Below, one piece after another: positions 3,357 to 31,155 of a DNA stretch of 34,595 nt. Each line of letters begins with the position of its first letter. The first letter of the stretch is position 1. The translations under genes and the position numbers were made by a program. The notes beneath the pieces are model-generated. The model was not told the origin of the DNA. It ran no database searches and saw only the letters and a list, made by a program, of their open reading frames with translations. This stretch comes from Fusobacteriaceae bacterium (GTDB lineage Bacteria; Fusobacteriota; Fusobacteriia; Fusobacteriales; Fusobacteriaceae), in NCBI GenBank assembly GCA_017988045.1, contig JAGNSM010000006.1, positions 1-34,595 of the forward strand, written 5' to 3'.

Positions 3357-4856
3357 ATGTTAGAAAAATATTTGGAACAATTAGCTTCATATAATGAGAA
3401 AATTCAAAACTATAATTTTTGTTTAAATATGATTTATTGGGATATGGAAACGGAAAAAGGTTTTCCATCAAAAGGAATAGAAAAAACTGGGAAAGTAATA
3501 GAGTTTCTGTCGAGCGAAGTCAATAATCTTATGATAAATAGCAAATCGAAGGACATGTTAGATTATCTTTCTTTGCACAAAGAAGAACTTTCAAAAATAG
3601 ATCAGAGACAAGTGGAACTATTATTAAGAAATTATGAAAGAGTATCAAAAATACCTGTTGAGCTTCTTTCAAAATACGAGGGATTAAAAATAAAAGCGCA
3701 AAATGTGTGGGTAGAAGCAAAGGAAAATAATGACTTTAACTTGTTTGCGCCGTATTTGAAAGAACTTATAGAATACAACAGAGAGTTTATAAAATTATTA
3801 GGTTATAAGGGACATCAGTATAACACGCTTTTGGAAGCTGGAGAATATGGAATGACTGTTGAGAAACTTGATAGTTTTTTTGAAGTGTTGAGAAAAGAAT
3901 TAGTTCCTTTTGCAAAAGAAACAATTAAAAAATTTGAGAGATTTGATGCTAGTTTCTTAGAAAGATTGGTTCCTTTAGAAAGACAAAAATCGTTTTCAAA
4001 TTTTCTTGCAAGATATATAGGATTTGATTTGGATAAAGGATTAATAAAAGAATCGGAACACCCATTTTGTATGGGAATAGAGCCAAATAATGTTAGATTT
4101 ACAACTCATTATTACAAAGATAATTTTGTATCTTCTATGTTTAGTATACTTCATGAAGGTGGCCATGGAATTTATGAGCAAAATCAAGATGAATCTCTTA
4201 TAGTAACTCTTTTACAGGGTGGAGCATCAATGGGAGTTCACGAATCTCAATCAAGAACTTATGAGAATATTTTTGGTAGAAATTACTATTTCTTAAAAGG
4301 ACTTTATCCAAATATTCAAGAAGTTTTCCCAGAGTTTAAAGATATTTCTTTAGATAATTTTTATAAAGGAATAAATAAGCCTGAGAACAGCTTAATAAGA
4401 ATAGAAGCTGATGAATTGACATATTCGCTTCATGTTATGATAAGATACGAAATTGAAAAGATGATTTTTGAAGGTAAGCTGGAGGTAGAAGATTTGCCAA
4501 GGGTTTGGAATGCAAAAATAAAAGAATATCTTGGAATTGATGTTCCTAGTGACTCAAAGGGAGTTTTGCAAGATGTTCACTGGGCTGGAGGAATGTTCGG
4601 ATATTTCCCTTCATATTCACTGGGAAATGCTTATGCCAGTCAAATAATTGATGAATTAAAAAAAGAGATAGATATAAATAGCCATTTGGGAAACGGAGAT
4701 TTTGCACCAATTAATTCATGGTTAAATGAAAAAATTCATAAAAAAGGAATGACTCTTGACCCTAATGATTTAATAAAATCAGTTTGCGGAGAAGAACTTA
4801 ATCCAGTTCCCTTTATTAATTATTTGAAAGAAAAGTTTGGTAGTATTGAGATATAG
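3357..4856 (+). CDS. Metallocarboxypeptidase, M32 family (carboxypeptidase Taq type)
   Basis: Zinc carboxypeptidase that trims C-terminal residues from peptides in the cytoplasm. The length, 499 residues, is exactly that of the family. The HExxH zinc motif is HEGGH at 266-270; the helix with the third ligand and family motif is HESQSR at 295-300. Other M32 signatures are seen: HPF...NVRFTT before the zinc site, IRIEADELTYSLH after it, and a C-terminal DVHWAGGMFGYFPSYSLGN. An in-frame ATG 24 bases upstream lies inside dinB before the ribosome site; I chose position 3357 because GGAGAAAGGGG sits just ahead of it and the family N-terminus then aligns. It starts one base after the dinB stop. There is no signal peptide. 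Confidence 0.93.
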   Translation: MLEKYLEQLASYNEKIQNYNFCLNMIYWDMETEKGFPSKGIEKTGKVIEFLSSEVNNLMINSKSKDMLDYLSLHKEELSKIDQRQVELLLRNYERVSKIPVELLSKYEGLKIKAQNVWVEAKENNDFNLFAPYLKELIEYNREFIKLLGYKGHQYNTLLEAGEYGMTVEKLDSFFEVLRKELVPFAKETIKKFERFDASFLERLVPLERQKSFSNFLARYIGFDLDKGLIKESEHPFCMGIEPNNVRFTTHYYKDNFVSSMFSILHEGGHGIYEQNQDESLIVTLLQGGASMGVHESQSRTYENIFGRNYYFLKGLYPNIQEVFPEFKDISLDNFYKGINKPENSLIRIEADELTYSLHVMIRYEIEKMIFEGKLEVEDLPRVWNAKIKEYLGIDVPSDSKGVLQDVHWAGGMFGYFPSYSLGNAYASQIIDELKKEIDINSHLGNGDFAPINSWLNEKIHKKGMTLDPNDLIKSVCGEELNPVPFINYLKEKFGSIEI

Positions 4857-16433: not shown

Positions 16434-16985
16434 TTAGAAAATTAGAGTTTTAAAAGCTATTAATATTAAAATACCTCCACCAAAATATTCAGCTTTAGTA
16501 TTGATATGTTTACCGATTTTGCTTCCTAGACAGACTCCTGAGAAGGAAATGATAAAAGTAATTAATCCAATTACAGTAATTGATTTAAAAATATTTATAT
16601 TTTGTAGCAGAGAAAAAGAAAAACCTATAGCCAAAGCATCAATACTTGTAGCAACTCCAAGCATAATCAAATCTCCACTTAATTTACAAATACCTTTTTT
16701 TTCACACAAATCACTTTCATAAGCTTCGTAAAGCATTTTACAGCCAATTCCTAAAAGTAGAATAAAAGATACAATACGACTATATTTGCTTATAAATTCT
16801 GAAAAAAGAGAACCAGCATACCAACCGAGAAGTGGCATAAAGGCCTGAAAAGCTCCAAATAATAATCCTACAATCAAACCATATTTTATAGATTGACGTT
16901 TGAGAGCTATTCCCTCTGAAAGGCTCACAGCAAAAGCATCCATAGCAAGACCGATTGATATTGCTATTAGGGTAAAGTTATTCAT
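16434..16985 (-). CDS. mntP: Manganese efflux pump MntP
   Basis: 183 residues and six membrane segments, the size of E. coli MntP. Two inverted halves each carry the family Asp motif: GLAMDAFAVS with D16, and ATSIDALAIG with D116, both in transmembrane helices thought to pass Mn2+. It exports excess manganese. The ATG at 16985 follows GGAGG; the extra 13 codons of the longer frame precede this site and are rejected. Its 5' leader of about 130 bases holds a promoter and a strong terminator, so attenuation is likely. Confidence 0.92.
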   Translation of the reverse strand: MNNFTLIAISIGLAMDAFAVSLSEGIALKRQSIKYGLIVGLLFGAFQAFMPLLGWYAGSLFSEFISKYSRIVSFILLLGIGCKMLYEAYESDLCEKKGICKLSGDLIMLGVATSIDALAIGFSFSLLQNINIFKSITVIGLITFIISFSGVCLGSKIGKHINTKAEYFGGGILILIAFKTLIF

Positions 16986-17022
16986 AAAAACCTCCAAGTG
17001 TATTAAATATTTTAAATTTCTC

Positions 17023-17074
17023 AAAAAAGACTTTTAATATGATTTTTAAGCCTAAAAGTCATATTAAAAGTCTT
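17023..17074 (-). terminator. Intrinsic terminator/attenuator in the mntP leader
   Basis: On the minus strand a perfect 16-bp stem, AAGACTTTTAATATGA with its complement (17059-17074 with 17027-17042), followed by TTTTTT overlapping the stem end and GAG. It lies 38 bases upstream of the mntP ATG. No minus-strand gene lies upstream that it could terminate, so it must act in the mntP leader. Confidence 0.8.
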
Positions 17075-17124
17075 GGCTAGCAGATATTAAGTAGTAAAAA
17101 ATTTATTCTAGAAAATATCACTTG

Positions 17125-17153
17125 ATTTTACAGGAAAGCATAAAAATGGTCAA
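17125..17153 (-). promoter_or_regulatory. Promoter of the mntP leader
   Basis: On the minus strand TTGACC, a 17-base spacer, then TAAAAT. Transcription would start near 17118; the 17106-17113 palindrome TTCTAGAA lies just inside the transcript. The leader before the terminator is only about 45 bases. Confidence 0.7.
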
Positions 17154-17207
17154 GAATAAATTTATTCGGTATTTATTAAAATGTTTGGAATTAGTTTTTT
17201 AAAAGAC

Positions 17208-17236
17208 TTGAAGTAATCTATTAAAAATAGTAAAAT
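17208..17236 (+). promoter_or_regulatory. Promoter of the AI-2E transporter-lipoprotein operon
   Basis: TTGAAG, a 17-base spacer, then TAAAAT, 23 bases before the GTG start. Confidence 0.6.
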
Positions 17237-17258
17237 GTTTTAAGAAAGAGGTGGGTTT

Positions 17259-18335
17259 GTGGATAAATTTAAGAAGTTTAAACCATTTATATATATGGCT
17301 TTTGGAATTTTATTTTATACGCTTATAAATCATGTTGGAGCTATAACTCAATTTTTAGGAAAAATATTTGGGACAGTAGCTATTTTTGTTTATGGAATGG
17401 TAATTTCGGTATTTTTGAATCCTGTTTTAGATTATTTGGAAAAACATTCTAAACTTAATAGAATCAAGAGTATTATATTGATTTATGCGTCTTTACTAAT
17501 AATAGTGTCTTTACTTTTATTTTTAGGAGTTCCTACATTCTTAAATAATATTAGAAATTTGACCAAAGAAATACCTGATTATGTAGTAAAACTTAATGAA
17601 ACTTTTAGTAGATTGGCAATTAAAATTGAGTTTTTTGAAAAGGTTAATTTTGCTGAAGAGCTAACCAATGGAAGTCAACTAGTCATGAATAGTATAGAAA
17701 ATATTCTTATTAATTCTGTAGGTAGCTTAGCAAAGACTTTTAATATAATAACTAACTTTTTAATAGCAACGATACTTTCAGGATTTTTTCTTGGGAAGAA
17801 AGAGTACTTTATAAACTTAACAAGAGAGATAATTTCTTTGTATTTTTCAGAAAAGAATACTGTTAAAATTTATTTTTTTGGAGAAAAACTTAATGAAGTA
17901 TTTTTAGGATGGCTCCATGGAAAAACAATAGATTCATTAATTATAGGGTTTGTAGGATTTATAATTTTGAGCTTATTAAAAGTTCCTTATGCAGTATTTT
18001 TAGGAGTAGCAATTTATATAACAAATTATGTTCCATATCTTGGACCAATGGTTGGAATAATAATAAGTGCTATAGTTGCATTTTTTACTGTTCAAGATAA
18101 AGTTTTATGGGTTATATTATTCCTGTTTATTTTGCAACAGTTTGACGCATGGTATCTAGAGGCAAGATGTTTTAGAAAGACATTAAATCTTGATTTGTTT
18201 TGGGGAATAGCAGCAGTTTTGTTTGGAGGGTCAATAGGAGGTCCTATTTGGATTATATTAATGATACCTACTTTTGCCTTTATAAAAGATATGTATCTGA
18301 TGAAAAAAGCTAATCAAGAAGATGAAGCAGAATAA
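17259..18335 (+). CDS. AI-2E family transporter (YdiK/TqsA-type membrane protein)
   Basis: 358 residues. Hydrophobic segments flank a soluble central part (about 90-150), with the family block GWLHGKTIDSLIIGFVGF, ILSLLKVPYAVFLGVAIYIT, and YVPYLGPMVGIIIS, and a late IGGPIWIILMIPTFAFIKD. Some members export autoinducer-2 and others move Na+ in exchange for H+; the name does not fix the substrate. GTG start with AGGTG five bases upstream; no nearby ATG fits. Its stop is 35 bases before the lipoprotein gene, so they are likely co-transcribed. Confidence 0.85.
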   Translation: MDKFKKFKPFIYMAFGILFYTLINHVGAITQFLGKIFGTVAIFVYGMVISVFLNPVLDYLEKHSKLNRIKSIILIYASLLIIVSLLLFLGVPTFLNNIRNLTKEIPDYVVKLNETFSRLAIKIEFFEKVNFAEELTNGSQLVMNSIENILINSVGSLAKTFNIITNFLIATILSGFFLGKKEYFINLTREIISLYFSEKNTVKIYFFGEKLNEVFLGWLHGKTIDSLIIGFVGFIILSLLKVPYAVFLGVAIYITNYVPYLGPMVGIIISAIVAFFTVQDKVLWVILFLFILQQFDAWYLEARCFRKTLNLDLFWGIAAVLFGGSIGGPIWIILMIPTFAFIKDMYLMKKANQEDEAE

Positions 18336-31104: not shown

Positions 31105-31155
31105 AAAAAGGACTCAAAATTCCTAAATTTTATCTTGGAATTTTGAGTCTTTTTA
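31105..31155. terminator. Bidirectional intrinsic terminator downstream of the AhpF-like gene
   Basis: GACTCAAAATTCC (31111-31123) pairs with GGAATTTTGAGTC (31137-31149), 13 bp, flanked by A/T runs on both sides. Confidence 0.85.

Follow-up and report, generated by a model that had tools for sequence, protein, structure and literature searches.

In Streptococcus, a Mn-sensing riboswitch of a Mn2+/Ca2+ ATPase was reportedly described by Martin et al. in 2019. In the Mn riboswitch of L. lactis, the terminator takes over the 3′ segment of helix P1.1 if no ligand is present (PMC11087558), and a study of E. coli mntP places a Mn riboswitch in the leader of that gene (PMC9603457). The window analysed here (the whole stretch of 34,595 nucleotides from a Fusobacteriaceae genome) also carries an mntP gene with a terminator-type hairpin in its leader. 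We propose, with a probability of about 0.62, that this hairpin is an orphaned expression platform, derived from a short riboswitch of yybP-ykoY-like (Mn2+) type, and that it presumably acts at present as a constitutive, Mn-blind attenuator.

Architecture of the mntP leader

The mntP gene, which encodes a Mn efflux pump (Pfam Mntp, 4.3e-44), is located on the minus strand at 16434–16985, with its ATG at 16985, and is preceded by a GGAGG ribosome-binding site, read from the sequence, at 16991–16995 of the same strand. The neighbouring AI-2E-family gene (17259–18335, plus strand, own promoter-like site at 17208–17236) is divergent from mntP. Therefore, as had been noted in an earlier reading made from the letters alone (the sequence-only reading), there is no upstream minus-strand gene that would need a terminator. 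The minus-strand promoter TTGACC-17-TAAAAT put forward in that reading is present in the sequence, with TTGACC at 17153 and TAAAAT ending at 17125. A promoter scan of the window found 29 such sites, compared to 40.4 in shuffled sequences, and this one is among the four that score 10 of 12 matches. Because promoter-like sites are not in excess as a class, the assignment rests on position and on likeness to the promoter of a riboswitch leader on contig C26 of the same genome, TTGACT-17-TAAAAT, which has the same layout.

The predicted transcription start is separated from the platform by a 42-base leader (17077–17118, minus strand), which contains neither an aptamer nor an antiterminator strand. 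The putative orphan platform (17023–17076, minus strand) is composed of CCAAGAC, the terminator hairpin, and a T-run. The two arms, AAGACTTTTAATATGA on the 5′ side (17059–17074, minus strand) and TCATATTAAAAGTCTT on the 3′ side (17027–17042, minus strand), are exact reverse complements and form the perfect 16-bp stem claimed earlier. The loop has 16 bases and contains an additional inner stem of 5 bp, set off by a C/A mismatch. The sequence after the stem is TTTTGAG; the T6 tail of the sequence-only reading is obtained with a stem of 14 bp, but not with one of 16 bp, since two of the Ts lie inside the stem, which leaves 16 bp followed by T4. The last T, at 17023, is 37 bases before the ATG, close to the 38 bases given previously. 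The mntP leader region folds better than shuffled sequences (z −2.46), and the hairpin is missing from a simple terminator scan, the size limit of which is exceeded by its loop. The only leader-peptide frame noticed by eye, from GTG 17121 to a TAG upstream of the stem, was rejected; it would begin no later than the predicted transcript start and lacks a ribosome-binding site.

A short yybP-ykoY-like element in Fusobacteriota

A DNA search of the genome identified a single other place similar to the mntP hairpin, on contig C26, where a P-type cation ATPase gene has this terminator in its leader. The hairpin is therefore not a dispersed repeat. The 13-mer AAGACTTTTAATA occurs six times in the 2.4-Mb genome, and four of the copies are the arms of the mntP and C26 hairpins. 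The C26 ATPase has the Pfam domains E1-E2_ATPase and Cation_ATPase_C, and its best NCBIfam model is a PMR1-type Ca ATPase, matched at 697 bits, below the cut-off of 798 bits. Both mntP and the C26 ATPase are cation-transport genes, and they share the same promoter layout.

Ahead of the terminator, the C26 leader contains GGGAGTAG...GGTGACAAGAC, which suggested a yybP-ykoY-type aptamer. The pattern GGGAGTAGN{40,70}AAGAC has matches in 47 of the 61 family genomes, most of them unrelated, and its reversed control is also common. From the list of matches, 29 plainly alike leaders in 28 genomes were picked by eye, and 21 of the 26 distinct leaders were aligned. In a test that leans in its own favour, because the structure was drawn on the same sequences, the alignment supports four helices with 26 pairs, in which 93.5% of the cells are paired, compared to at most 45.2% in slid controls. 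Within the aptamer, 11 pairs are changed on both sides (6.9 in shuffles, of which 3 of 500 are as high), and the covariation score of 0.315 is reached by none of 500 shuffles. The platform stem is 99.1% paired, with seven pairs in which both sides have changed (a count equalled by 109 of 500 shuffles) and a covariation score reached by none of 500 shuffles. The Fusobacterial element, as exemplified by the C26 copy, has a conserved and covarying structure in which helix P1 would compete with the terminator.

A covariance model of the aptamer, R1, run over 98 Fusobacteriota genomes, identified 40 copies in 39 genomes, including that of the window. The carriers are 37 of the 61 genomes of the family and two genomes of another family. 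The C26 copy (G000:C26:6557-6651, equivalent to L051 3558-3652) precedes the P-type cation ATPase gene, and 39 of the 40 copies are located before relatives of this ATPase (35–100% identity, tblastn). The remaining copy, in the other genome of the genus (L126 326-423, G045:C296), precedes a gene for an HtpX-type M48 peptidase (Pfam Peptidase_M48). Because this sister genome has a copy before the M48 gene and none before mntP, the element seems to have moved within the genus. An M48 peptidase of the HtpX type is an unusual target for a Mn-type switch.

The Rfam model of yybP-ykoY (RF00080) has no match over the gathering score in any of the 61 family genomes and none at E up to 10 in C26 or locus L104, and no tested copy of the Fusobacterial element reaches the Rfam cut-off. 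When run without filters, R1 matches all six RF00080 places in related genera (E 0.0025 or better) with the same start and 17.8–21.8 bits; the six places are themselves below the Rfam cut-off. GGGAGUA, UCAACA, CUGG, and AGAC are aligned in these matches, and the GGGAGUAG, UCAACA, CUGG, and CAAGAC-type stretches of the RF00080-like loci and the Fusobacterial elements are in register, whereas the Fusobacterial elements are without the 8–9-base insert after GGGAGUA-- and without part of the last hairpin. We treat the Fusobacterial element as a probable divergent and shortened relative of yybP-ykoY, to which the designation 'Mn' is given by kinship and gene context. It is a candidate for a new Rfam subfamily, a compact Mn-type riboswitch of 37 of the 61 family genomes that is not called by the Rfam model, and it predicts that the P-type ATPase is under Mn control throughout the family. 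We consider the short aptamer with its covariation a more useful discovery than the mntP hairpin. Among the titles and abstracts retrieved from the open-licence literature, none deals with a Mn riboswitch of Fusobacteria or with a riboswitch platform that has been orphaned. Two longer RF00080-like elements are located about 1.1 kb apart at L053 1502-1614 and 2627-2734 (G052:C1), and each precedes a gene that by eye resembles a cation exchanger.

Platform likeness and sensor search at mntP

The exact pattern AAGACTTTTN{24,54}AAAAGTCTTTTT has eight matches in the 61 family genomes, and its reversed control has none. Seven of the matches are behind an aptamer, and the eighth is the mntP hairpin. 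A covariance model of the platform, R2, was built from 21 platforms with mntP excluded, and in a search of the 98 Fusobacteriota genomes it gave the mntP hairpin 56.1 bits. The 39 rows of at least 45 bits are made up of 37 platforms directly behind an R1 aptamer, one antisense match of such a platform, and mntP, which is thus the sole aptamer-free hit at this level (1 of 38 after the antisense row is dropped) in the 98 genomes. Conversely, R2 matches among the rows compared accompany 38 of the 40 aptamers, one of them, in G033, at 39.6 bits; the other two aptamers are without such a match. The energy of the mntP hairpin, −19.7 kcal/mol, is inside the range of 29 platforms (−15.5 to −27.6), and the 5′ arm of its terminator contains the sequence of the P1 3′ strand, as in an expression platform. 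These comparisons strongly indicate that the mntP hairpin is akin to the riboswitch platform. The link to Mn drawn in the sequence-only reading appears to be real, but of another kind, in that the hairpin corresponds to the platform of a Mn-riboswitch-like element elsewhere in the genome.

It is improbable that the hairpin is an ordinary intrinsic terminator whose likeness to the platform arose by chance or convergence, unlinked to the riboswitch. Stems of the AAGACTTTT type do occur elsewhere in the phylum, and the best aptamer-free hairpins besides mntP reach 39.2 (G066) and 37.2 bits (G002); several of nine decoys inspected by eye are close behind coding sequences and resemble ordinary terminators. 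However, the mntP hairpin is 17 bits above the best decoy, has stretches of 14 and 17 bases in common with the C26 platform of its own genome and of 15 and 18 bases with that of the congener, and is located before a Mn exporter gene with no upstream gene to end. A rough exponential tail of ten decoys, with antisense and duplicate rows dropped and the position before a Mn exporter not counted in, gives an expectation of 0.002 hits at 56.1 bits in the 98 genomes. Likeness alone is still not descent, because a resemblance of up to 39 bits can occur among ordinary Fusobacterial terminators, as in G066. A second, weaker platform-like hairpin at 31105–31154 of the window has 24.5 bits on the minus strand and 22.1 on the plus strand, in the range of ordinary terminators.

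The hairpin is present before one of 48 mntP matches, in one genome, and is absent before mntP in the congener, which does not bear out the expectation that the stem would be kept before mntP in relatives. A comparison by eye showed no overlap between R2 matches and the other 47 mntP matches; 31 distant mntP loci from other phyla were left out of the comparison. In the sister genome, the mntP leader is without a hairpin of this kind and is not significantly similar (alignment score 32, shuffle mean 33.4). An eroded hairpin in the sister genome was thus rejected, and no intermediate is seen. The carrier genome is a draft in 248 contigs (completeness 90.06, contamination 3.07), and one congener was compared. 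Such fragmentation would allow an assembly error, by which an aptamer present in the organism is missing from the draft contig, but we give this very little credence; the longest stretches shared with C26, of 14 and 17 bases, are short for a collapse in the assembly, and the same mntP/AI-2E gene pair occurs in the congener (70% and 66% protein identity). This shared pair makes the locus unlike a contig chimera on that side. Among 45 further mntP loci, mostly covering only ~1.5 kb of flank, the pair was not found. At L039 1348-1883 (G040:C11), an mntP match is split over two frames with stops and is likely a pseudogene, and the same locus carries a SAM riboswitch at 3416-3501.

No Rfam family matches the window at the gathering score. 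In the region 16900–17300, RF00080 is not found at E up to 10, in agreement with the earlier statement that the leader lacks the yybP-ykoY consensus, and R1, run without filters, does not exceed 6.5 bits, with 4.1 bits at the mntP hairpin. The other Rfam matches in the leader at E up to 10 were rejected; most are to microRNA or sRNA models, which fit the bare hairpin with scores far below their cut-offs. Of the aptamer, which is defined by GGGAGUAG ... CAAGAC and the switch helix P1, only CCAAGAC remains in the mntP leader. Upstream of CCAAGAC, alignments to three aptamer leaders are at the level of shuffles, and no recognisable aptamer remnant was found; common descent of this segment with the three leaders was rejected, because only shuffle-level likeness was seen. 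A duplex of the 42-base leader with the 5′ arm of the terminator has an energy of −1.1 kcal/mol (300 of 300 shuffles as low), and that of the whole upstream intergenic DNA −6.7 kcal/mol (104 of 300). The same pairing test on 29 intact elements gives −5.3 to −12.7, with 4 to 181 of 300 shuffles as low. Because only part of the 29 elements beat their shuffles, the test points to a lack in mntP, and not to P1 generally.

These results bear on a working attenuator with another sensor, where control of the terminator by Mn or another signal would lie with the 42-base leader or with a bound protein. Promoter, leader, terminator, and gene are correctly ordered for it, and the intact hairpin, as strong as other platforms, speaks against long neutral decay. 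Nevertheless, we consider it unlikely in view of the absence of a competing strand in both the leader and the whole intergenic DNA, the lack of conservation of the leader hairpin in the congener, and the lack of an Rfam match. Of the attenuation of mntP proposed in the sequence-only reading, the terminator-type hairpin in the leader stands, whereas its control by a different, short Mn-sensing RNA is unsupported, because the hairpin is unconserved and the leader is without a strand able to compete with the terminator. It is very unlikely that the terminator has been captured by a new control, so that read-through of the mntP platform depends on the 42-base leader or on a partner in trans, for example the terminated leader RNA of C26; if this were true, two exporters would share one switch, with the sensor in only one of them.

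Proposed function and relation to known manganese riboswitches

In the intact elements, CAAGAC-TTTTAATA serves both as the P1 3′ strand of the aptamer and as the 5′ arm of the terminator. The ligand would hold P1 and let the polymerase pass, and when the ligand is absent, the terminator would form. Before mntP, the terminator half alone remains. Because there is no aptamer and no competing strand, termination would be metal-independent: the mntP terminator is expected to stop, at any level of metal, a fixed share of the transcripts that the 17153 promoter starts, and mntP expression from this promoter may be low and Mn-independent.

The orphaned platform probably originated by one of two routes, which are not separated here: the loss of the aptamer from a riboswitch copy that stood before mntP, or the partial copying of a platform. 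Against its reading as a relic, the feature occurs in one 248-contig draft genome, and both the start site and the termination are predictions. As a candidate case of a riboswitch that has decayed or spread in part, the mntP hairpin is well delimited: the platform may have persisted after its sensor was gone, next to a gene of the type such switches often serve.

The Fusobacterial element resembles yybP-ykoY riboswitches in its position before a cation ATPase, and C26 and the other elements also in the P1 3′ strand that doubles as the terminator 5′ arm, whereas in the mntP leader the aptamer is wholly absent. The riboswitch of the Streptococcus Mn2+/Ca2+ ATPase, which belongs to another phylum, is reportedly likewise a Mn-type switch before a P-type cation ATPase. 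The exchange between P1 and terminator appears to be the same as in L. lactis (PMC11087558). The mntP gene of the window and that of E. coli (PMC9603457) both have parts of a Mn riboswitch in their leaders, but the leader in the window is aptamer-free, and what remains in it is an intrinsic terminator.
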